Assembly: GCA_903850885.1 (NCBI GenBank)
Contig: CAINMU010000094.1
Span: 1-41,155, forward strand
Direction of reading: 5' to 3'
Length of the DNA stretch: 41,155 nt
Source of the DNA: an uncultured Opitutia bacterium
Lineage (GTDB): Bacteria; Verrucomicrobiota; Verrucomicrobiia; Opitutales; UBA953
The position numbers were made by a program, and so were the translations under genes. Position 1 is the first letter of the stretch; each line of letters opens with the position of its first letter. The notes below the pieces were generated by a model that had not been told where the DNA came from, made no database searches, and worked only from the letters and a program-made list of their open reading frames with translations. Positions 6,142 to 34,725 of the stretch are shown one piece after another.

Positions 6142-6219
6142 GGTGGTTGTAGCTCAGTTGGTTAGAGCACCGGTTTGTGGTACCGGGGGTCGGGGGTTCA
6201 AGTCCCCTCAATCACCCCA
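6142..6219 (+). tRNA. tRNA-His (anticodon GTG)
   Basis: A full cloverleaf can be drawn. The acceptor GTGGTTG (6143-6149) pairs with CAATCAC (6209-6215) with one G-T pair. The D stem is GCTC/GAGC. The anticodon stem CCGGT/ACCGG encloses loop TTGTGGT with anticodon GTG at 6177-6179. The T stem encloses TTCAAGT. The extra G at position -1 (6142), opposite C73 (6216), is the identity element of tRNA-His and is encoded in the gene. CCA (6217-6219) is encoded too. The gene stands alone, between the divergent helicase gene and a secreted protein gene. Confidence 0.97.
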
Positions 6220-23860: not shown

Positions 23861-25018
23861 TCAATAAACATCACGCTGATAACGGCCGTCTTTCTTGAAC
23901 TGCTTCACCCAATCGACAGCGGCTTCCGGAGTCATTTTCCCATGCTCAGCCACCAGCGCATGCAAAGCAGCATCCACATCCTTGGCCATCCGCTTGGCAT
24001 CGCCGCACACGTAGAAATAAGCCCCTTCCGAAATCCAGCGCCATAACTCCGCGGCGTTTTCACGCATGCGATCCTGGACATAGACCTTGGTCGCTTGATC
24101 ACGGGAGAAAGCCGTGTCCAAACGGGTCAAGACGCCTGACTGCAAATACTCCGCCCATTCATCGGCATAAAGGAAATCGTGCTCTTTGCGCTGATCGCCG
24201 AAGAAAAGCCAGTTGCGACCTTTCGCGCCCCGCGTGGCTCGGTCCATGACAAAGCTGCGGAACGGGGCCACACCGGTACCGGGCCCCACCATGATCACCG
24301 GGACATTATCGTCTTCCGGTAAGCCGAAATGGGATTCGGCCACAAAAACCGGCAGGTCGGCCTGCCCCAGGCGAGCCCGTTCCGCGAGATAAGTCGAACA
24401 GACCCCTTCCCGCTTCCGGCCATTGGTTTCGTAACGGACGACCGCAATCGTCAGATGGATTTCGTCCGGAAATTTGGATGGTGCCGAGGAAATCGAATAA
24501 AGCCGGGGCATCAGTTTACGCATGAGCTCGACCAGCTCTTGGGCCAGCAATCGGGCCGCGGGAAATTCGGTGAACAAATCGACGTATTCGCGCTGCTCGA
24601 TCCACGCTTTCTTTTTTTCCGGATCAGCCTCGGCTAATAAGGCTGCGAGCTGCGCCTTCTGCACTTCGTCAACGGTACGGTCATGCAATTGTTGAACGAA
24701 CTTGTAAGTCGGACCATTGAGTGCGAGACGCTTCGATAGGGCTTCGCGTAAAGAAATCGAACTCGTATCCTTGGGTAGCGTCACCGGCTCATCTCCCGAA
24801 AAGCCCGCCGCTTTCAAGAGCTCGGTGACTGCCGCCGGATTATTGATGGGAAAGACACCGAGGGAGTCGCCGCAAGCATAGGTCAGACCGCTACCCGCCA
24901 GCGAAACGGAGAAATGCTGGGTATCCTTTTGGCTCGCAGGCGCGCTGAGTCGATGCCGATCAATCAAGCAGGCCGCAAATGGGTTATTTTTGTCGAAAGG
25001 TGAGGACATGGCGGACAC
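23861..25018 (-). CDS. CysJ-like FAD/NADPH reductase without flavodoxin domain
   Basis: This 385-residue protein matches the C-terminal FAD- and NADPH-binding half of sulfite reductase flavoprotein (CysJ) and cytochrome P450 reductase. The FAD motif RLYSISSAP, the flavin loop GVCSTYLAERA, the NADP motif GPGTGVAPFRSF and the end DGRYQRDVY are all present. The N-terminal flavodoxin (FMN) domain of CysJ is missing; the protein begins directly with the FAD domain. It may pass electrons from NADPH to a separate flavodoxin or ferredoxin, or directly to a partner such as sulfite reductase. No such partner lies in the window. It is 53 bases downstream of the GH16-like array, so co-transcription is possible. 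Confidence 0.85.
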   Translation of the reverse strand: MSAMSSPFDKNNPFAACLIDRHRLSAPASQKDTQHFSVSLAGSGLTYACGDSLGVFPINNPAAVTELLKAAGFSGDEPVTLPKDTSSISLREALSKRLALNGPTYKFVQQLHDRTVDEVQKAQLAALLAEADPEKKKAWIEQREYVDLFTEFPAARLLAQELVELMRKLMPRLYSISSAPSKFPDEIHLTIAVVRYETNGRKREGVCSTYLAERARLGQADLPVFVAESHFGLPEDDNVPVIMVGPGTGVAPFRSFVMDRATRGAKGRNWLFFGDQRKEHDFLYADEWAEYLQSGVLTRLDTAFSRDQATKVYVQDRMRENAAELWRWISEGAYFYVCGDAKRMAKDVDAALHALVAEHGKMTPEAAVDWVKQFKKDGRYQRDVY

Positions 25019-25071: not shown

Positions 25072-25764
25072 TCACTTATAGGCCTTCACCCAGTCCACCT
25101 CGATCGGATCATTCTGTGTCTTGGGAGTGATATCTTTTTTCTCAAATTCGGACACCCAATTACCGAATGAAAGCACCATGCCCGCCTTGACGACCTCCGC
25201 CAGCGGGGCTTGGAATACTTTCTTGCCGTCCAAGAACCAGGTACAAGATTTCTCCACCCACAGAAAACCATAGGTATGGAACGATTTTGAAATTACGCCC
25301 GGACGGAGAAATGATTCTTTCTTGGCCGACTCTAAATCCTTTACTCCCTTCGCGGTGGCCAGGCGACCCCATATCCGAAGCTTATCTTCGCCAAAGCCTT
25401 CGAAGAGAAAATTAGCGGACGGCAGCTCCTTATCGCTCTCGGATTTTACGACATACGCGCAATGGTGACCTTTATAAAGACCCATGCGCACCGAGGCCTC
25501 GAAGTAGCCTTGGACTTGGGAGAACTTACCGCGCGTGGACAACCCTCCGCCGTTTAGTCCCTCAGGGCGCTGCTTAACGTCGATGAGCAATTTTCCGGAC
25601 TTAAAAGAAACCGCGTCAGAATTTCCCTCATAGGTCCACTTCGTCGCATCCAACGTCGTCGCTTCGAACTGATCTTCGAAAGTCACTTTCATCTTCGCAG
25701 CCGGACTTTCGGCGCGGACAAAGCCGGAGGCGAGAACCAGGAGAATACAGAGCTGAGATCGCAT
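25072..25764 (-). CDS. GH16-like secreted paralog A (likely non-catalytic)
   Basis: This 230-residue protein has a signal peptide (about 1-18, SGFVRA-ES). The GH16-type jelly roll opens with VTFEDQFEATTLDATKW and closes with the exact C-terminal strand VDWVKAYK. YGFLWVEKSCTWFLDGKKVF matches the GH16 strand that places a sugar-binding Trp. At the catalytic strand, where active enzymes read ExDxxE, this protein reads NFLFEG, so the nucleophile and general acid are missing. It is the last of four genes with gaps of 1-5 bases. Probably a secreted sugar-binding or structural protein; the ligand is unknown. The frame extends nine codons upstream to a GTG at 25791, but the ATG at 25764 precedes the signal peptide. 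Confidence 0.8.
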   Translation of the reverse strand: MRSQLCILLVLASGFVRAESPAAKMKVTFEDQFEATTLDATKWTYEGNSDAVSFKSGKLLIDVKQRPEGLNGGGLSTRGKFSQVQGYFEASVRMGLYKGHHCAYVVKSESDKELPSANFLFEGFGEDKLRIWGRLATAKGVKDLESAKKESFLRPGVISKSFHTYGFLWVEKSCTWFLDGKKVFQAPLAEVVKAGMVLSFGNWVSEFEKKDITPKTQNDPIEVDWVKAYK

Positions 25765-25769
25765 AAAGG

Positions 25770-26462
25770 TTATTTCCAAATCTTCACCCAATCGACGTCG
25801 ACGTCATCGGGCATATTTTTGGCATCAAAATTCTTGCGATCGCCTTCGGTAGAATAATGCCTGATGGACAGAACCATCGGACCGACGGCGGAGGGCTTAT
25901 CCAGTTTGAAAATAATCTTATTGTTCAGATACCAGACATAGGCCGCGGGCGTCCAAAGGAATCCGTAGACATTGGCATTCTTGGAAACGATACCCGGCTT
26001 CAGATAAGTCTCCTGCTTCTTTACTTTCGCCGGTTTGAATTCGCGCGCCCCGGCCGCCTCGAGAATCCGGGCCATGGGGAAAAGTTCGTCGTCCCCCGCG
26101 CACTCGAACTTAAGCAAAGCCGAAGGAACTTGGCCGGTATCCTTCGGATGAATGTGAAAACTTGACCGATTACCGCGGTAAGCGTTAAAGCGGATGGCCG
26201 CTTCAAAATAGCCCTGAGACTGGGAAAACTTGCTCGAAATACTTCCGCCCTTGAATCCGTCGGCTACCTTATGGAAGCCCAGAATCACCTTGCCGTCCTT
26301 CAGCGTCACCTGATCCGGATTACCGACCGTCCATTTCTCCGTATCAATCTTGGCCCCGTTAAAATCGTCGGAAAAAACCAACTTCATCTTAGGCGTCGGA
26401 CTGTCAGCCCGGCCGCCGGCAAGGGCGACCCAGAACACGAGGACGAATCGGAAACTGCGCAT
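25770..26462 (-). CDS. GH16-like secreted paralog B (likely non-catalytic)
   Basis: At 230 residues, with signal peptide 1-19 (GGRA-DS), this protein has the same layout as A. LVFSDDFNGAKIDTEKW is the classic GH16 opening strand. GGSISSKFSQSQGYFEAAIR matches the GH16 segment that ends GRxEARIK. YGFLWTPAAYVWYLN and the terminal DWVKIWK follow. The strand expected to hold ExDxxE reads LLKFEC, so the catalytic pair is absent. It lies five bases before A and one base after C, which implies coupled translation. Among the five, B shows the best match to GH16 at both ends and is the best anchor for an alignment. Confidence 0.8.
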   Translation of the reverse strand: MRSFRFVLVFWVALAGGRADSPTPKMKLVFSDDFNGAKIDTEKWTVGNPDQVTLKDGKVILGFHKVADGFKGGSISSKFSQSQGYFEAAIRFNAYRGNRSSFHIHPKDTGQVPSALLKFECAGDDELFPMARILEAAGAREFKPAKVKKQETYLKPGIVSKNANVYGFLWTPAAYVWYLNNKIIFKLDKPSAVGPMVLSIRHYSTEGDRKNFDAKNMPDDVDVDWVKIWK

Positions 26463-26463
26463 C

Positions 26464-27150
26464 TTACTTATAGACTTTCACCCAATCTACCTCGATGTCA
26501 TCCGGCAGAGTCTTAGGGTCGAAATCCTTGCGATCGGACTCCAAGGCGTTGTGCTGGATCGCAAAACTCATGGGGGTCTTAACCTCCGGTTTATCAATCT
26601 TCATAGCGACCTTGCCTCCGATATAAATCGTGTAGGCTTTTTCCGTCCAAAGTATCCCGTAGGTATTAAACTTCTTGGAAGCGGCCTCTTTCCCGCCACC
26701 CAAGAAACCTGTCTCCTTGGGCGAGGCGGCGTCGCGCGTCCCCCCCGCCGAAGCTAGCCGGGCCCAGGGATAGACCAAGTCAGCCCCTTTATTCTGAATG
26801 GTAATGGAGGCCCCAGGGATCTCCTCGGCCGTCGAGCTGATCCGCATCGTACCCCGATGGCCTTTGTAGGCGTTAAAGCGGATAGATGCCTCGTAATAGC
26901 CATAAGGCTGTTCGGGCTTGGCGGCGATGGTGATGCCACCACCCACGGGGCCGGTAGGCGTCATGCCGAAACCCAAGACCAGCTTACCCTTCTTGATCGA
27001 AACATGCTGAGGCGCGGTGATTTTCCACTTCGTCTGGTCGACGGCGGCTGCCTCAAAGTCATCGGAGAATATGACTTTCATCTTCAACGCCGGGTTATCC
27101 GCCCGGGCAATGAGAGAAGCCAGAATCAGCAAGAGGAGGGAGGGTCGCAT
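26464..27150 (-). CDS. GH16-like secreted paralog C (likely non-catalytic)
   Basis: This 228-residue protein has a signal peptide (about 1-18, LIARA-DN). It keeps VIFSDDFEAAAVDQTKW, QPYGYYEASIRFNAYKGHRG, YGILWTEKAYTIYIGGK and the terminal DIEVDWVKVYK. The catalytic strand reads SITIQN, with no acidic residue at all, the most extreme loss in the group. The end MSFAIQHNALESDRKDFD is shared closely with B (LSIRHYSTEGDRKNFD), so B and C probably arose by the most recent duplication. Gaps are one base to B and five to D. A further ATG upstream at 27177 would precede the signal peptide and is not used. Confidence 0.8.
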   Translation of the reverse strand: MRPSLLLLILASLIARADNPALKMKVIFSDDFEAAAVDQTKWKITAPQHVSIKKGKLVLGFGMTPTGPVGGGITIAAKPEQPYGYYEASIRFNAYKGHRGTMRISSTAEEIPGASITIQNKGADLVYPWARLASAGGTRDAASPKETGFLGGGKEAASKKFNTYGILWTEKAYTIYIGGKVAMKIDKPEVKTPMSFAIQHNALESDRKDFDPKTLPDDIEVDWVKVYK

Positions 27151-27155
27151 CGGTA

Positions 27156-27869
27156 TTATTTGTAAATTTTCACCCAATCAATCTGCATGGGTTCGGGGGG
27201 CAATTTAGGGTCGGGGAAGTTTTTCAAGACCCCTCCTTCAGGAAGGTTGTGGTAAAAATGCACCGATAATGGCGCCGTTGGCGTCGTAATACTGACGCGG
27301 TGGACTTGGCGTGTATTGACATACCAAGCAAAGTATTTCGGCGTCGAAAGGACGCCATAGGTGTTGAACTTCTTATAGGAGGCCCCGCCATCGAGAGGAA
27401 TCGGGCTATTGACCGGCTCGATGTTCCTGACCCCGGCCTCTTCGGCGATCTTAAGGGTTGGGCGCACGGTGTTCGTGGCCTCGCCGCTCGTTGTAAAATA
27501 AATTTCGGCGGCAGGAAACTTCTTGACTGCAGATTCCTCGAAAAACGTCCTCACTTGCATGCCGCTATGCCGCCCCTTCGTTTGGATCATCCGAATGGAA
27601 GCCTCAAAATAACCATAGGGTTGTCGAAACTTACAAGTAACAGTGGCGTTCTTCCACAGAGTTGGTTTGCCGTCCTTTGAGGAGACTTCGAGTGATAATT
27701 TGCCATCCGCAACCTTGCAGCCTTCTTTGTTGTCTTTAGAGAAATCCCATTTGGTCAGGTCTAGTTCCTTGACGTCGAATTTATCTTCGAAGACCAATTT
27801 CATGGTGCTGGTCGGATCAGCCCAAAGGGTAGAGGCCAATAAGAGTGAGGCGATAAGACGTACGTACAT
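27156..27869 (-). CDS. GH16-like secreted paralog D (likely non-catalytic)
   Basis: At 237 residues (signal peptide about 1-17, STLWA-DP) this is the first of the tightly packed four. It opens LVFEDKFDVKELDLTKW, contains QPYGYFEASIRMIQTKGRHSG and ends MQIDWVKIYK. With E it shares YKKFNTYG, WYVNTRQV and an EGGVL motif near the end, so D and E form a subgroup apart from A-C. At the catalytic strand it reads EIYFTT: the first Glu survives but the middle Asp and second Glu are replaced. A candidate promoter and short leader precede the ATG. The frame extends upstream to 27941 without a signal-like start, so the ATG at 27869 is preferred. Confidence 0.8.
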   Translation of the reverse strand: MYVRLIASLLLASTLWADPTSTMKLVFEDKFDVKELDLTKWDFSKDNKEGCKVADGKLSLEVSSKDGKPTLWKNATVTCKFRQPYGYFEASIRMIQTKGRHSGMQVRTFFEESAVKKFPAAEIYFTTSGEATNTVRPTLKIAEEAGVRNIEPVNSPIPLDGGASYKKFNTYGVLSTPKYFAWYVNTRQVHRVSITTPTAPLSVHFYHNLPEGGVLKNFPDPKLPPEPMQIDWVKIYK

Positions 27870-27888
27870 AGGAGGCTTAGGGGCACAT

Positions 27889-27919
27889 ATATTACAAAGC
27901 CAGCTAAGGCTTTTGGCAA
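27889..27919 (-). promoter_or_regulatory. Candidate promoter for the GH16-like D-C-B-A unit
   Basis: On the minus strand TTGCCA (27919-27914) and TAATAT (27894-27889) are separated by 19 bases, which is longer than ideal. A start would fall about 12 bases before the ATG of D, giving a very short leader. AAAGCC...GGCTTT lies between the boxes and could form a weak hairpin. Tentative. Confidence 0.3.
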
Positions 27920-27977
27920 GTGCTTGGTAAAACGAAGGCACCCCTAAACCAGAGCCCAGGTAAGGAAATATCCTCGA

Positions 27978-28661
27978 TTACTTCCAAATCTTCACCCAAT
28001 CGATGACGAGCGGCTCAGGACCAAGGGCGGGGTTCGGGAAACTGCGAAGCACGCCCCCCTCAGGCGTTCCGTGATGAAATTTCATCTCTAATGGCCCCGA
28101 AGGAGTCGGGCGTTCGACCCGGAAAACCTGTCGTGTATTCACGTACCATAGGTAGGTCTTGGGCGTTACCAGTAGTCCGTAGGTGTTAAACTTCTTATAC
28201 GTCACACCGCCTTCCATCTTAATCGGACTTTCCTTCGGGCGCAGTTTCTGAGTTCCGAGCAATTCGCCGACATCCAAATAGGGTCCGACCTTATCGGCGC
28301 CCCCGCATTCAAATCCTAAACTGGCGGATGGAAATTTCGTTTCGAGGGAACTACCGCTGATACCGAAACCGACGCCATGCCCCTTGGTCTGCACCATTTG
28401 GATCGAGGCTTCAAAATAACCATAGGATTGTTTAAATTTACAATCCAACTTCCCGGACCGCCAAATCGTAGACTTGCCGCCTGAAATCACTTCGATGGAG
28501 GCTTTCCCATCAACCAATTTGACAATCTCTTTCTTAAAACCCCATTTGGACTCATCGATGGATTGGCCGTTAAACTGATCTTCGAAAGCCAACTTCATAC
28601 CACCCTCTGGCCCCGCCCAGAGAGCGGTGGCTAAAACGAGGATGCATAAGCGCAAAATCAT
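27978..28661 (-). CDS. GH16-like secreted paralog E (likely non-catalytic)
   Basis: This 227-residue protein has a signal peptide (about 1-16, TALWA-GP) and stands 108 bases upstream of D. It opens KLAFEDQFNGQSIDESKW, contains QSYGYFEASIQMVQTKGHG, and ends LVIDWVKIWK. The strand for ExDxxE reads SLGFEC. It shares with D YKKFNTYG, WYVNTRQVFRV and EGGVLRSFPNPAL; both lie in one subgroup. Its leader CCCCTTAGCC is nearly the same as that of D (CCCCTAAGCC), as if the duplication had included upstream DNA. The ATG at 28661 is the only start that gives a signal peptide. Confidence 0.8.
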   Translation of the reverse strand: MILRLCILVLATALWAGPEGGMKLAFEDQFNGQSIDESKWGFKKEIVKLVDGKASIEVISGGKSTIWRSGKLDCKFKQSYGYFEASIQMVQTKGHGVGFGISGSSLETKFPSASLGFECGGADKVGPYLDVGELLGTQKLRPKESPIKMEGGVTYKKFNTYGLLVTPKTYLWYVNTRQVFRVERPTPSGPLEMKFHHGTPEGGVLRSFPNPALGPEPLVIDWVKIWK

Positions 28662-28736: not shown

Positions 28737-29441
28737 TTAATTCTCGAAAATCATCTCAATTTCCTTCCGAGCCAACGGCCGACAATCGCCCAAGGGCATC
28801 TTTCGTAAGACGAGTTCGCCGATTTGGAACCGCCGGAGAGTCTTCACATGGAAACCGAAAATCTCGAAGAGACGCCGAATCTCGCGCTTCCGGCCTTGAT
28901 CCAGATGGATCTCCAGCGAAGCCGGATTGTCCGGGTGACGGATCACCTTCTTAAAACGCAGATGCTCGCCTTCTTCAAAAGCCCCCTTGATCAAACGCGG
29001 CGTGAGCGTGGGGTCATAATCGCGGTTCAAGAGAATCTCGTAGCGCTTAATGACGCCACCCGAAGGGTGCATCACTTTGTTGGCCAGGTCGCCATCATTG
29101 GTCAGCAACAGCAAGCCCTCCGAATCCTTGTCCAGTCGCCCGACACAAAACAAGCGTAGCTCTTTATATTCAGGCGGGACCATCTCGAAGACTGTATGCC
29201 CACCATGCGTGTCATCATTGGTGCAAAGAAAACCACGGGGCTTATTCATCATCAATACCACCGTTCGGGACAAAGGTTTGACTAATTGACCCCGGCAGCG
29301 GACCTGATCGGTCTCACCATTGACGGGCTGTCCAGTCTTGGCGACGATGCCATTGATTGTCACGACCCCCTCCGCGACCAGACGTTCCGCCTCCCGACGG
29401 GAACAGACCCCCGAGGTAGCGAGAAATTTATGAATGCGCAT
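28737..29441 (-). CDS. RsuA/RluB-family pseudouridine synthase
   Basis: This 234-residue enzyme modifies a uridine in rRNA. The S4 domain (about 1-45, MRIHKFLATSGVCSRREAE) is followed by the catalytic domain with GRL-D104-KDSEGLLLLTNDG, in which D104 is the catalytic aspartate. The usual GRLDxxTEGLL has Ser for Thr here. RKREIRRLFEIFGF supports the RsuA/RluB/RluE family. The ATG at 29441 has AGAAGGA a few bases ahead, one of the few Shine-Dalgarno-like sites in the window, so it is preferred to the GTG at 29456. The target uridine is not determined. It is divergent from folD. Confidence 0.92.
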   Translation of the reverse strand: MRIHKFLATSGVCSRREAERLVAEGVVTINGIVAKTGQPVNGETDQVRCRGQLVKPLSRTVVLMMNKPRGFLCTNDDTHGGHTVFEMVPPEYKELRLFCVGRLDKDSEGLLLLTNDGDLANKVMHPSGGVIKRYEILLNRDYDPTLTPRLIKGAFEEGEHLRFKKVIRHPDNPASLEIHLDQGRKREIRRLFEIFGFHVKTLRRFQIGELVLRKMPLGDCRPLARKEIEMIFEN

Positions 29442-29562
29442 AGGTCCTTCTGACACGCCCTACCCATTGAGGCATTTAACGACACAGGGCGAGACAATCA
29501 ATTCAGGCCTTAAGTGAGGACTTTTCTCGCCCTCCTTCCCTCCTTTGCCCTACATAGTGCCC

Positions 29563-30435: not shown

Positions 30436-31054
30436 CGCTCCCCCTATCCCGCCTTCGAGCCCTCCGCCCATCCCCTTTACGCCTGCGGGGTATTGGTGGA
30501 GGACGCTGGCCTGCCTTGCGGATATCATTCCACTTTTGTTCCTAGGCTGGGCCCTGGCTGGCTTATTGGCGGGACCGGACGAACTCGCCGCCCGTCAAGA
30601 AACTGACGCTTGGATGCACCGCTTCGTGAATCAGTACGTAAAGCTCTTCAGTGCCGGCGGCTCCTTACGCGAAAACCAAGCCCTATGGGATATGCTTCTT
30701 AAACCCGACCCCAAGGCGCTCGAAGCCATGTCCGTGTGGGTGAACTTCCAAGGCATGGTGACTTTTTTCACGCTCATGCTGACCTTAACCTTCCAAGAGT
30801 GGCAAATGAAGGGCCAGACGATTGGCAAAATGATCTTCAACCTGCGCACAATTGATATCGGCACCCGACAACCCCCGGTTTTTTTCGGCTGTTTGCTGCG
30901 CTCAGCCTGGAAGGCCTCGTTTTTCGCCCTGCCTAACCCCATCTTCATGGTAATTGGGGTTATCAACTTTCACGTGCCGCTCTTTCGTCGCGACCGTCGT
31001 GCCTGGCACGATCTTTGGACGCGCACGCAGGTCATCGACAACAAACTCAGCTGA
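30428..31054 (+). CDS. RDD-family membrane protein
   Basis: This 208-residue protein has a proline-rich N-terminus ([12 protein letters not shown]), then the RDD motif region [19 protein letters not shown] and about three membrane helices in total (about 30-50, 112-130 and 160-185). The C-terminal [19 protein letters not shown] is the typical RDD ending. The family is poorly understood; some members are linked with ion movement. The GTG start overlaps the folD stop by eight bases. The secreted esterase gene follows after seven bases, so folD, this gene and the esterase may be one transcript, though their functions are not obviously linked. Confidence 0.85.
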
Positions 31055-31061
31055 ACCCTCT

Positions 31062-31943
31062 ATGCGCCTCGCCCTGCTCTGCTTGACCTTGGCGACGTCG
31101 CTCAGTGCCGCCGATTTAGTCCTGCCGCCGCTGACCGAACAAGACCCGCAGCCTGGCAAGCGAGCCGCCATCACCACAACCGAATATGCCGGCACGAAAG
31201 TCCATCACCTGATCGCGTTGCCTGACGACTGGACGCCGGACTGGAAGGCGCGCGGTAAGAGCTGGCCGGTGATCGCCGAATACACCGGCAACTACTTCCC
31301 GACCTCCGGCTCCACCGGTGAAATCGAAGGAGCCGCCCTTGGCTACGGCGTCGCGCGCGGTAAGGCCATCTGGATCGTCCTGCCTTACGTCGCCAAGGAC
31401 CATCAGAAGAACGAGATCACCTGGTGGGGCGACATCGATGCCACCGTCAGCTACGCCAAGACGAACATCCCGCGCATCTGCGCCGAGTTCGGCGGCGACT
31501 CTAAACGGGTCGTCCTCTGCGGCTTCTCGCGCGGCGCCATCGGCGTCTCCTTCCTCGGCTTGCACGACGACGAAATCGCCAAGCTCTGGTGCGGACTCTG
31601 GGCCCACGACCACTTCGACGGCATGCTGGAATGGAAGGGGCACCCCTGGGGCTCGCCGCTGGCGCGCTACCGCGAGGAAGCGTCCGTCCGCCTGCGCCGC
31701 CTCGCCGGCCGCCCGCTGCTTGTCAGCCAGGCCGGCGCCGAGACCCGCCGGTTCATCGATGCCCTCGCGCCGAGCGGCGTCACTTATCTTACGGTCGACA
31801 TGCGGACGCACTTCGGAACCTTTCCAAATGAACTCGCCCAGCATCCGCACAACGATCGCTGGGCATTGCGTGACGGGCCGGCGACGAGCATCGCTCGCGC
31901 CTGGTTCGAAGGCGTGACGGCGACAAATAAGACGGCGAAATAA
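31062..31943 (+). CDS. Secreted alpha/beta-hydrolase (esterase-like)
   Basis: This 293-residue protein has a signal peptide (about 1-17, TSLSA-AD). The nucleophile elbow is CGF-S156-RGAIG, and a likely catalytic His lies in DMRTHFGTF near residue 250. It resembles D-(-)-3-hydroxybutyrate oligomer/PHB depolymerase-like or cutinase-like esterases only in fold. The substrate is unknown. An upstream in-frame ATG at 30954 would lie inside the RDD gene and is rejected; the ATG at 31062 begins the signal peptide. From here rightward the DNA is visibly richer in G+C with strong C-ending codon preference. Confidence 0.8.
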   Translation: MRLALLCLTLATSLSAADLVLPPLTEQDPQPGKRAAITTTEYAGTKVHHLIALPDDWTPDWKARGKSWPVIAEYTGNYFPTSGSTGEIEGAALGYGVARGKAIWIVLPYVAKDHQKNEITWWGDIDATVSYAKTNIPRICAEFGGDSKRVVLCGFSRGAIGVSFLGLHDDEIAKLWCGLWAHDHFDGMLEWKGHPWGSPLARYREEASVRLRRLAGRPLLVSQAGAETRRFIDALAPSGVTYLTVDMRTHFGTFPNELAQHPHNDRWALRDGPATSIARAWFEGVTATNKTAK

Positions 31944-32224: not shown

Positions 32225-32395
32225 ATGGCCGCCCTCGCTCTCACCGTCTTTTTCTCCGTCCTGCTGGCCCTCCTGGCCGCACTCGCATTCCTATGGGATC
32301 AGCGCAACCGCGGCGAAGACGGGTACGATCGGGATTCCCTGCGACCGCTTGACGACGACGCGTCCGGCCCTGCTCCGACCAACAAGCTTCCATGA
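32225..32395 (+). CDS. ccoS: CcoS-like cbb3 oxidase maturation protein
   Basis: This 56-residue protein is one membrane helix (ALTVFFSVLLALLAALAFLW) followed by an acidic tail WDQRNRGEDGYDRDSLRPLD. This fits CcoS/FixS, whose members are small one-helix proteins with a FLW...GQFDD type tail, needed for cofactor insertion into cbb3 oxidase. It starts at an ATG inside a longer frame beginning at 32174; the first 17 residues of that frame are basic and do not fit. Its stop overlaps the ccoN start as ATGA. Its place at the head of the operon rather than after ccoI is unusual. Confidence 0.75.
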   Translation: MAALALTVFFSVLLALLAALAFLWDQRNRGEDGYDRDSLRPLDDDASGPAPTNKLP

Positions 32396-34725
32396 ACGAA
32401 AAGAATCCGTCCACCATCCGCTATAACGATGAAATCGTGAGGCGTTTCACACTCGCCTCGATCTTCTGGGGCGTGGCTGGCATCCTCTTCGGGGTTTTTA
32501 TCGCGCTGCAACTGGCCTTCCCGGCGCTGAACTTCGGAATCCCGTACACCAGCTTCGGCCGCCTGCGACCGTTACACACCAACGCGGCCATCTTCGCGTT
32601 CATCGGCAACATGATGTTCGCCGGCGTCTACTACTCCTCGCAGCGTCTCCTCAAGACCCGACTCGCCTGCGAGTTTCTCAGCAAGGTCCACTTTTGGGGC
32701 TGGCAGTTCATCATCCTGCTCGCGGCCATCACCCTGCCCCTTGGCCTGACCCGCGGTAAGGAATACGCCGAGCTCATCTGGCCGATTAACATCCTCGTGG
32801 CCGTTATCTGGGTCGTCTTCGGCATCGTCTTCTTCACGACCCTTGCCCGTCGTCGCGAACGCAGCCTGTACGTCGCCATCTGGTTCTACATCGGCACAAT
32901 CATCACCGTCGCCCTGCTCTACGTGGTCAACCACCTCTCGCTCCCGACGAGCTTGCTGCACAGCTACCCTATCTTCAGCGGCGTGCAGGATGCGCTCGTG
33001 CAGTGGTGGTACGGCCATAACGCCGTAGCTTTCTTCCTCACCACGCCGATCCTTGGCATCATGTATTACTTCATCCCCAAGGCCGTGGGACGACCAGTCT
33101 ACAGCTACCGCCTTTCGATCATCCACTTCTGGTCGCTAATCTTCCTCTACATCTGGGCCGGTCCGCACCACCTGCTCAACACCGCCCTCCCCAGCTGGCT
33201 CCAGGGACTCGGCATGATCTTTTCGCTCATGCTTTGGGCGCCCTCCTGGGGCGGCATGCTGAACGGGCTGCTCACGTTGCGCGGCGCATGGGATAAGCTG
33301 CGCACCGACCCCGTGGTCAAGTTCATGGCGGCGGCCGTGACGTTCTACGGCATGGCCACCTTCGAAGGCCCCCTGCTCTCGATCAAGGCCGTCAACGCCC
33401 TCGGCCACTATACCGACTGGATCATCGGCCACGTCCACGCCGGCACCCTCGGCTGGAACGGCTTCATGGCCGCGGGCATGTTCTACTGGCTCGTGCCGCG
33501 ACTCTGGGGCACGAAACTGCACAGCGAACGACTTGCGAACCTCCATTTCTGGCTGGGGATGATCGGCATCCTCTTCTACGTCGCCTCGATGTGGGTCGCC
33601 GGCATTGGCCAAGGCCTCTCGCTCAACGAGCTCACCGCTGACGGCTCCGCCCCGGCCAACACTTTCATCGAGACGCTGAAGAACATCATCCCGATGTACT
33701 ACCTCCGCGCCCTCGGCGGCGGCCTCTATCTCGTCGGCTACCTACTGATGGTCTACAACCTCGTCCGCACCATCCGTGGCGGCGTCGCCACCGACGGCAC
33801 GCTGCAGGTCGCCGAAGCGGCGCCGGCGGCGGCGCCCGCCAAGGCCTTCGCCGGCTTCCTCAACCCTCCGGTGCTCTTCACCCTCTCCATCATCGTGATG
33901 GTCTGCGTCTGGCTGCTTGGCCAAGGCGGCTGGAGCACGTTCGGACTCGTCGGCGCGATCATCGCAACCCTCGCCACAATCGCGCACTTCGAGCTCAACA
34001 GTTACGGCTGGAAACAGTGGCATGAGGAGCTCCTGCATAACGCCTTTCCTTTCGCCATCCTTTCGCTCATCGCCGTCGCCATCGGCGGCTCCCTGCAGAT
34101 CATCCCGACCGTCGCGCTCTACCGCGGCGACGGTGACGCCAAGCTACTCGAAGGCAGGCGGCAGACGCCCTACCGTCCGCTGGAGCTCGCCGGACGCGAC
34201 ATCTACGTCCGCGAAGGCTGCTACAACTGCCACTCGCAGATGATCCGCACCCTGAAGCCCGACATCCTCCGCTACGGAGCGGGCCAGGGCTATTCGCGCC
34301 TCGGGGAATCGATCTACGACCGGCCCTTCCAGTGGGGCTCGCGTCGCACCGGCCCGGACCTCGCCCGCGAAGGCCTACTCCGTCCGGACCTGGCCTGGCA
34401 CTATCGCCACCTAAACAACCCCCGCGAACTCGAGCCGGATTCCATCATGCCGGCCTACCCTTGGCTGAAGGATGGACAGGTGGATCGCTCGCAACTCTTC
34501 GGCAAGATTTCGGCGCTGCGCACCCTCGGCGTGCCTTATAAGGCTGAAATCAGCACGCCTGGGGCCATCCAGGCCGATTATGAATCCCAGTCCAAAGAAA
34601 TCGCCAAAGCTCTTGCCGACAAGGGAATCAAAGTCTCCGCCGACGCCGAGATGGTAGCGCTCCTGGCCTACCTGAGCCGCCTCGGCCTCAACGTCGAACC
34701 CATCAAGACGGAGGACGCTCGCTGA
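32392..34725 (+). CDS. ccoNO: cbb3 cytochrome oxidase, fused CcoN-CcoO subunits
   Basis: This 777-residue protein joins the catalytic subunit (CcoN, about 1-480) and the mono-heme subunit (CcoO, about 530-777). CcoN is shown by about 12 membrane helices and conserved His: LHTNAAIFAFIGN, WYGHNAVAFFLT, IWAGPHHLLNTALP and GHVHAGTLGWNGF. CcoO is shown by a membrane helix near 560 and the heme motif C610-Y-N-C613-H614, with PDLAREG and MPAYPWL for the Met ligand. The linker about 485-500 is Ala-rich. Together they form the proton-pumping oxidase of high oxygen affinity. Fusion of N and O is known in some Bacteroidetes and Verrucomicrobia. The gene overlaps ccoS by four bases and ccoQ starts one base after it. 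Confidence 0.95.
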   Translation: MNEKNPSTIRYNDEIVRRFTLASIFWGVAGILFGVFIALQLAFPALNFGIPYTSFGRLRPLHTNAAIFAFIGNMMFAGVYYSSQRLLKTRLACEFLSKVHFWGWQFIILLAAITLPLGLTRGKEYAELIWPINILVAVIWVVFGIVFFTTLARRRERSLYVAIWFYIGTIITVALLYVVNHLSLPTSLLHSYPIFSGVQDALVQWWYGHNAVAFFLTTPILGIMYYFIPKAVGRPVYSYRLSIIHFWSLIFLYIWAGPHHLLNTALPSWLQGLGMIFSLMLWAPSWGGMLNGLLTLRGAWDKLRTDPVVKFMAAAVTFYGMATFEGPLLSIKAVNALGHYTDWIIGHVHAGTLGWNGFMAAGMFYWLVPRLWGTKLHSERLANLHFWLGMIGILFYVASMWVAGIGQGLSLNELTADGSAPANTFIETLKNIIPMYYLRALGGGLYLVGYLLMVYNLVRTIRGGVATDGTLQVAEAAPAAAPAKAFAGFLNPPVLFTLSIIVMVCVWLLGQGGWSTFGLVGAIIATLATIAHFELNSYGWKQWHEELLHNAFPFAILSLIAVAIGGSLQIIPTVALYRGDGDAKLLEGRRQTPYRPLELAGRDIYVREGCYNCHSQMIRTLKPDILRYGAGQGYSRLGESIYDRPFQWGSRRTGPDLAREGLLRPDLAWHYRHLNNPRELEPDSIMPAYPWLKDGQVDRSQLFGKISALRTLGVPYKAEISTPGAIQADYESQSKEIAKALADKGIKVSADAEMVALLAYLSRLGLNVEPIKTEDAR

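Follow-up and report, generated by a model that had tools for sequence, protein, structure and literature searches.

GH16 genes are commonly taken as a sign of laminarin or beta-glucan degradation in aquatic genomes. Loss of the catalytic residues is already known in this family: a GH16 survey puts it at ~9 % of GH16_4, 0.7 % of GH16_3, and 1 % of other members, so that it counts as rare except in GH16_4, with the GH16_4 losses said not to form monophyletic groups (PMC6827312). Insect beta-glucan recognition proteins are described as GH16 relatives without the catalytic glutamates and are held to bind glucan (PMC6403176); typical insect GNBPs are described as having an added N-terminal CBM39 and a role in immunity (PMC13414360). 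The mycobacterial protein Rv0315 (PDB 4wzf) is a GH16 protein reported to be inactive with both catalytic glutamates of EXDX(X)E kept, an inactivity that its authors ascribe to a wide cavity (PMC4606783). Here we describe five tandem genes at positions 25072-28661 of contig CAINMU010000094.1, from an uncultured Opitutia bacterium with a 2.34 Mb draft genome that is 96 % complete; "the window" denotes the whole 41,155-nucleotide stretch of this contig that was analyzed. An earlier note on this DNA had read the genes as an array of secreted, GH16-like jelly-roll proteins. Absent from that note is what we regard as the main point: the catalytic residues of GH16 have been lost from these proteins and from the entire family to which they belong.

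Fold and former catalytic strand

We aligned 142 distinct members of the family from freshwater Opitutae with 31 comparison GH16 proteins, namely 30 of the L116-L150 set, taken from a scan of genome contigs, that cover at least 120 profile columns (shorter matches were dropped) and the second GH16 of the same genome, C28; one of the 30, L122, is of the C28 type and comes from the same genus. The motif E-x-D-x-x-E is present in all 31 comparison proteins, C28 included, and in none of the 142 members. When acids were counted at the aligned positions in the better of two registers (unbulged ExDxE or bulged ExDxxE), no member had three, 5 had two, 74 had one, and 63 had none, with the glutamate at the last motif position still in place in 68 of the 142. 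A loose E-x-D-x-E string, with any second residue allowed, occurs somewhere in 5/142 sequences, none of them on the catalytic strand. The tryptophan column of the -1 subsite, whose role in GH16 we take from PMC4606783, holds W in 0/142 members and in 44 of 49 comparison rows, one of which, L199, turned out to belong to the family itself: it comes from the sister genus and lacks the tryptophan; a second, less conserved column holds W in 7/142.

The proteins themselves are predicted, from family profiles and structural models, to be concave GH16-type beta-jelly-rolls. PF00722 (GH16) exceeds its curated cut-off in four of the five window proteins (E 9e-11 to 3e-4 overall, with gene 5 just under the cut-off) and matches 104 of the 105 rows of a member alignment, A2, at E <= 0.01. 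At the same threshold, a profile of the five retrieved 40 distinct PDB sequences, the best a beta-glucanase (E 9e-12), which are named as glucanases, laminarinases, carrageenases, porphyranases, and other GH16-type enzymes, one merely as "Hydrolase". AlphaFold2 models of genes 1 and 4, made from alignments of 105 and 64 sequences, are all-beta; their predicted local distance difference test (pLDDT) and predicted template modeling (pTM) scores are in Table 1. GH16 enzymes fill the top rows of Foldseek searches with both models, and the best VIA-align match of gene 1 is a GH16 glucanase (Z 23.9, 204 residues, root mean square deviation 2.3 A). These results agree with the GH16-like jelly roll of the earlier note. 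An origin from PF06439 (3-keto-disaccharide hydrolase) was considered and rejected, as this match is weaker than that to GH16: among the window proteins it is seen in gene 4 only, at 15.6 bits against a cut-off of 26.8, and in A2 it covers 17 of 105 rows at E <= 0.01, with a best E of 1.1e-4 against 4e-15 for PF00722. No other Pfam domain exceeded its cut-off in the five window proteins, and CBM39 was unmatched in the Pfam scans of the five and of A2, which gave PF00722 and weak PF06439 only.

Gene 1 is 32-43 % identical to the other four, and all five share an F-x-D-x-F opening, a GY(F/Y)EA-type strand, and a YG..L strand. The landmarks listed in the earlier note hold: its C-terminal DWVK(A/I/V)(Y/W)K stands as the extreme C-terminus of the five proteins, while the opening, GYFEASIR-type, and YG strands hold in these reworded forms. 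The mature part follows the signal-like stretch directly as a jelly roll and stops at its last strand, so that a C-terminal anchor is absent. Secretion, also proposed in the earlier note, is consistent with the N-termini of the family, 130 out of 136 of which resemble signal peptides when judged by a crude rule made for this analysis; the six misses are gene 5 and its orthologs (four, which fail the cleavage-site pattern only) and the fused frame of G022 (two). A lipobox was found in none of the 136. The G022 frame (L057:1858-3099) joins two pseudo-GH16 domains in a single 414-amino-acid product.

Relatives of the family differ in how much of the motif they keep. Among 17 nearer GH16 relatives (L185 being the gene already included above as L122), 13 have ExDxxE, two ExDxxD, one ExVxxD, and one QLEILS. 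The copies of two sister-genus genomes read SEIYVAE and AELYIAE, i.e., E-x-Y-x-x-E, with both glutamates kept and the aspartate replaced by tyrosine; window gene 4 retains E-I-Y and has lost the last glutamate. From these sequences the loss looks stepwise, with the sister-genus E-x-Y-x-x-E as a possible intermediate, although the tree does not fix the order of events. The QLEILS relative, L184:2601-3395 (G022:C280), lies off the array and is possibly a further inactive copy in the same genus.

A single clade with a fixed place on the chromosome

In a maximum-likelihood tree (short search), the 142 copies form one clade with an SH-like approximate likelihood ratio test (SH-aLRT) support of 99, or 98 in a second tree in which sister-genus copies fall inside the clade. 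The clade splits into a left lineage on the side of cysJ (SH-aLRT 94) and a right lineage on the side of rsuA (83), with supports of 82 and 89 in the second tree. Species with two genes have one of each lineage; in larger arrays, further duplications are seen within each lineage, and the paralogs follow one another on the chromosome in much the same order. In the window, the left lineage is represented by genes 1-3 and the right by genes 4-5, which recovers, as a cysJ-side trio and an rsuA-side pair, the two subgroups that the earlier note had drawn from the five proteins. The tree places the sister-genus copies within the left lineage, but with a weak support of 82, so that the first duplication may or may not be older than the genus.

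At E <= 1e-24, the family was detected in 43 of the 55 genomes that represent the genus, and as cut fragments in one more. In the other 12 genomes no full match is seen: the site is empty in six, the fragments of G018 lie where contigs break off, and the remaining five assemblies contain nothing that matches rsuA. Across 372 genomes of the order, matches outside the genus at E < 1e-50 occurred only in the sister-genus genomes G336 and G341 (next best, 1e-24); in a phylum sample of 387 genomes, the best match outside the genus had E 1e-30, and three such outside proteins that we inspected (L203-L205) keep E-x-D-x-x-E. Titled loci with strong matches come mostly from freshwater Opitutae, Opitutales, or Verrucomicrobia assemblies, and the few unrelated names look like mislabeled bins. 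Two array contigs, L102 and L105, are titled Polynucleobacter meluiroseus and Akkermansia muciniphila; their flanks are as in Opitutae, and the titles are probably wrong. The genus label g.UBA953 is used in a paper on genome-reduced freshwater bacteria (PMC11039613), which presumably concerns the same genus as our array carriers. Orthologs of C28, an active-type GH16, occur in 27 of the 55 genomes, including 24 of the 43 array carriers, and are missing from all six genomes with an empty site; as these genomes are related, we draw no conclusion on a link with the array. Two C28 orthologs (G033:C7:22963-23715 and G028:C41:754-1506) each contain one TGA, which could mean that the gene is decayed, that the read is in error, or that the stop lies beyond the gene proper.

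Where the flanks are readable, the array lies between a gene for a CysJ-like reductase (followed by fabG and fabF) and one for an RsuA-type pseudouridine synthase (followed by folD); in the underlying gene listing, a few rows seem out of sequence, as it orders long overlapping frames by where they end. We examined 46 loci, 32 of which have both flanks on one contig. Of these 32 arrays, 2 contain one copy, 9 two, 2 three, 13 four, and 6 five. The flanks directly adjoin each other, leaving an empty site, in G006, G218, G270, G274, G343, and G355, all genomes of 1.2-1.5 Mb; single copies are found in the small genomes G030 and G172 and also in the 2.3 Mb G057 (L079), and are thus not confined to small genomes. 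Outside the genus, G336 has a single member between cysJ and a divergent rsuA, an orientation to rsuA unlike that in the array genus, and G341 has a single member beside cysJ; in the sister-genus genome G128, no family member lies within 1.2 kb upstream of rsuA. In G045, from a more distant family, an RsuA-like gene (46 % identity) adjoins cysJ with no GH16 between. Homologous arrays, which the earlier note had proposed to look for in other Verrucomicrobiota, exist in dozens of genomes, always at this site; together with the PF00722 matches, this recurrence speaks against a chance resemblance. Recovery of the same array from many independent assemblies, on contigs that in some cases reach 100-660 kb, led us to reject an assembly artifact. 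A mobile or phage origin was likewise set aside: no relatives were found in viral contigs by a pattern-based search, which is a weak test, and the one tRNA of the window, at 6143, is far from the array.

The coordinates of the window genes agree with the five tandem minus-strand paralogs of the earlier note, four of them packed with gaps of 5, 1, and 5 bp; the fourth gap is 108 bp. As that note also stated, no transporter, regulator, or sulfatase gene is interleaved. Of 91 gaps across arrays, 84 lie within -4 to 58 bp, 12 of these being 4-base overlaps (-4); four of the remaining seven measure 106-108 bp, and three come from a fused frame or an unscored gene. The five genes form a tandem set that is probably co-translated. 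A promoter and terminator scan returned fewer sites than shuffled sequences and was uninformative.

Coding-sequence comparisons indicate that the array is under purifying selection: the ratio of nonsynonymous to synonymous substitution rates (dN/dS) was 0.039-0.281 over 20 ortholog pairs, although single values are rough, being Nei-Gojobori counts for hand-chosen pairs with dS up to 1.7. With intact reading frames and dN/dS of 0.04-0.28, decaying pseudogenes were rejected; the low ratios indicate that selection retains these inactive proteins for some function. We consider it very probable that this is an inactive GH16-derived paralog array under selection.

Table 1. The array and its neighbors in the window; the five genes are intact open reading frames with coordinates counted from internal ATG starts
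Feature	Position	Strand	Details
Left flank, CysJ-like FAD/NAD(P)-binding reductase	23861..25018	-	Adjoins array where flank is on contig; presumed outside the function
Pseudo-GH16 gene 1, left subgroup	25072..25764	-	230 aa, signal-peptide-like N-terminus; PF00722 E 9e-11; AlphaFold2 pLDDT 91.4, pTM 0.86
Gene 1 catalytic-strand equivalent	25390-25422	-	PSANFLFEGFG
Pseudo-GH16 gene 2, left subgroup	25770..26462	-	230 aa; PF00722 E 4e-9
Gene 2 catalytic-strand equivalent	26094-26126	-	PSALLKFECAG
Pseudo-GH16 gene 3, left subgroup	26464..27150	-	228 aa; PF00722 E 2e-6
Gene 3 catalytic-strand equivalent	26785-26817	-	PGASITIQNKG; zero acidic residues remaining
Pseudo-GH16 gene 4, right subgroup	27156..27869	-	237 aa; PF00722 E 7e-6; AlphaFold2 pLDDT 86.1, pTM 0.84
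Gene 4 catalytic-strand equivalent	27483-27515	-	PAAEIYFTTSG; single Glu remaining, E-x-Y like sister genus
Pseudo-GH16 gene 5, right subgroup	27978..28661	-	227 aa; PF00722 20.8 bits against cut-off of 22
Gene 5 catalytic-strand equivalent	28299-28331	-	PSASLGFECGG
Right flank, RsuA-type pseudouridine synthase, then folD	28737..29456	-	Presumed outside the function

Elsewhere in the window, a 777-amino-acid frame at 32392-34725 (+) combines COX1 (CcoN) and FixO (CcoO) domains, i.e., fused cbb3 oxidase subunits I and II. A 329-amino-acid frame at 30954-31943 (+) gave no match to Pfam at 1e-3; its internal start is signal-like, and a GFSRG string lends it an esterase-like look.

Possible functions of the paralogs

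Group specificity was measured as the mutual information of each of 214 alignment columns with membership in seven large paralog groups. The ExDxE-equivalent positions 118, 120, and 122 (gene 1 numbering) rank 17, 32, and 45, and the intervening strand positions 117, 119, and 121, which appear core-facing from their hydrophobicity, rank 115, 61, and 153. Other high-ranking columns include 103, 105, 124, 157, 158, 205, and 207, which, judged by GH16 topology, would line the groove. The consensus triples of the seven groups are LLE, TSH, LLE, GGS, SSV, AYE, and RFE. The residues of the former catalytic strand, being in part specific to a group, support the "diversified set" of the earlier note.

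Based on these observations, we propose that a GH16 ancestor lost catalysis and that its later duplication gave rise to several secreted groove proteins without catalytic activity, which most likely bind glycans, an explanation to which, taken whole, we give a probability of roughly 55 %. The proteins would be exported by the Sec route and either remain in the periplasm or leave by way of a secretin system, the genome having two secretins. The old substrate groove would now be a binding site, and the paralogs would hold different ligands, most likely short stretches of polysaccharide from the environment or from the cell's own envelope, acting as free periplasmic or surface lectin-like proteins in the capture, retention, or masking of glycans. 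Because the catalytic triad and the -1 tryptophan are missing from all 142 members, a binder is likelier than an enzyme. Glycan binding in the former groove is our best guess because the fold persists without its chemistry and most groups differ at the positions of the old active site; with their moderate constancy inside groups, these positions suggest different ligands per paralog. A precedent for such binding is provided by the insect glucan-recognition proteins (PMC6403176). Judged from sequence, glycan binding as such is about an even bet. More tentatively, the array may represent a bacterial recognition repertoire in which a dead GH16 scaffold gave rise to multigene secreted lectins whose former catalytic positions set the choice of ligand.

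Several observations weigh against this proposal. With the catalytic residues and the -1 tryptophan platform both gone, the old sugar subsite is not preserved, and the partner could be a protein. Rv0315, an inactive bacterial GH16, is reported not to bind laminarin (PMC4606783). The commonest residue has a mean within-group share of only 0.68, 0.74, and 0.81 at positions 118, 120, and 122, groups A and C have the identical triple LLE, and the groove-facing orientation of the three positions is read from alternation and alignment, not from coordinates. Gene 1 and three orthologs carry an ESDKE or ENDKE string, modeled in the loop directly before the strand; these are four of the five loose motif strings, the fifth member having its string elsewhere. 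Finally, the genome has one TonB-dependent receptor and, at 96 % completeness, no GH3, so that a glucan-uptake pathway is not obvious, though this setting is not decisive, and the flanks examined revealed no linked transporter or enzyme.

We weighed four other explanations. The one that survives best, though it appears improbable, is a structural role, in which the jelly rolls would form a coat or layer at the cell surface or within the periplasm and the paralogs would be its building blocks instead of binders of different ligands. Single-domain secreted proteins encoded by several packed paralogous genes without a linked enzyme or transporter would suit such a role; the absence of a lipobox (0/136) and of a C-terminal anchor would not, nor would the strong between-group variation of the former catalytic strand, since a coat protein has no need to differ there.

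Somewhat less probable are cryptic enzymes, active through migrated catalytic residues or a different chemistry. The strong purifying selection, the last-position glutamate of 68 members, the two acids of 5, the two glutamates that sister-genus copies keep beside the Asp-to-Tyr change, and the gene 1 ESDKE string in the preceding loop are what one might expect of such enzymes. Yet the consensus residues differ from group to group, leaving no common replacement triad, and the -1 tryptophan is gone in 142/142.

We think it a little less likely still that the proteins are decoys or inhibitors that bind proteins (e.g., foreign glycosidases), or surface antigens exposed to phages or grazers and diversified by conflict. 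Secretion, duplication, and copy numbers of 0-5 between species would fit, whereas the low dN/dS of the 20 pairs and the lack of relatives in the pattern-based search of viral contigs would not; ortholog order is also stable in the tree, unlike what is expected of fast-changing antigen loci. PADLOC gave no defence-model match for the five proteins, and a defence system was rejected on that ground. Last, a plain laminarinase cluster of ordinary GH16 glucanases, which automatic annotation would favor given PF00722 in 104/105 A2 members, was rejected as very improbable, being contradicted by the sequence itself, in which the motif is missing from the aligned strand in 142/142.

Comparison with known GH16 proteins

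Among the entries listed in a search of the open-access literature, none described this array, nor did any report an inactive GH16 family from Verrucomicrobiota. What appears new, on sequence grounds, is a monophyletic, tandemly expanded bacterial pseudo-GH16 family. Family searches would label the array proteins as glycosidases; we do not class them as GH16 enzymes, because the defining catalytic motif was looked for and is missing. With 1-5 such "glycosidases" per genome that are very unlikely to be such enzymes, GH16 counts would mislead in this lake genus of 55 species-level genomes. The locus also offers a natural series for the birth of a pseudoenzyme, from active relatives elsewhere through the sister-genus single gene with E-x-Y-x-x-E to duplicated inactive sets and absence in some small genomes. 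If the paralogs do bind different glycans, they would be a ready set of small, single-domain glycan probes.

The laminarinases and lichenases used for comparison (PDB 6xqf, 6jh5, 4crq, and 1mac), which belong to subfamilies GH16_3 and GH16_21, share with the array proteins a jelly roll over the mature protein (Z 21-24 in the 50 matches listed), the PF00722 match, a C-terminal DWVK/DYVRVY-type strand, and secretion. In contrast to these enzymes, the array proteins lack ExDx(x)E on the strand and the -1 tryptophan, are 12-22 % identical to them, and are short, single-domain, and encoded in tandem. Rv0315 appears among the fold matches of gene 4 at Foldseek rank 49, and differs in keeping its catalytic glutamate pair.

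The insect GNBPs presumably belong to GH16_4. These beta-1,3-glucan recognition proteins likewise have a GH16 fold whose catalytic glutamates are lost and which is described as repurposed for binding (PMC6403176). A GH16-like domain without the catalytic glutamates, as in GNBPs, is what we find in the array proteins as well, though 68/142 retain one glutamate. Unlike the insect proteins, the bacterial ones have no CBM39 match, are encoded in operon-like arrays, and would owe their inactivity to a separate loss. The array could then be an independently arisen bacterial counterpart of the insect GH16-derived glucan receptors, a parallel that we offer tentatively. Compared with the scattered inactive entries known from GH16, the family described here is a single clade of 142 distinct sequences from which the catalytic motif is gone throughout.

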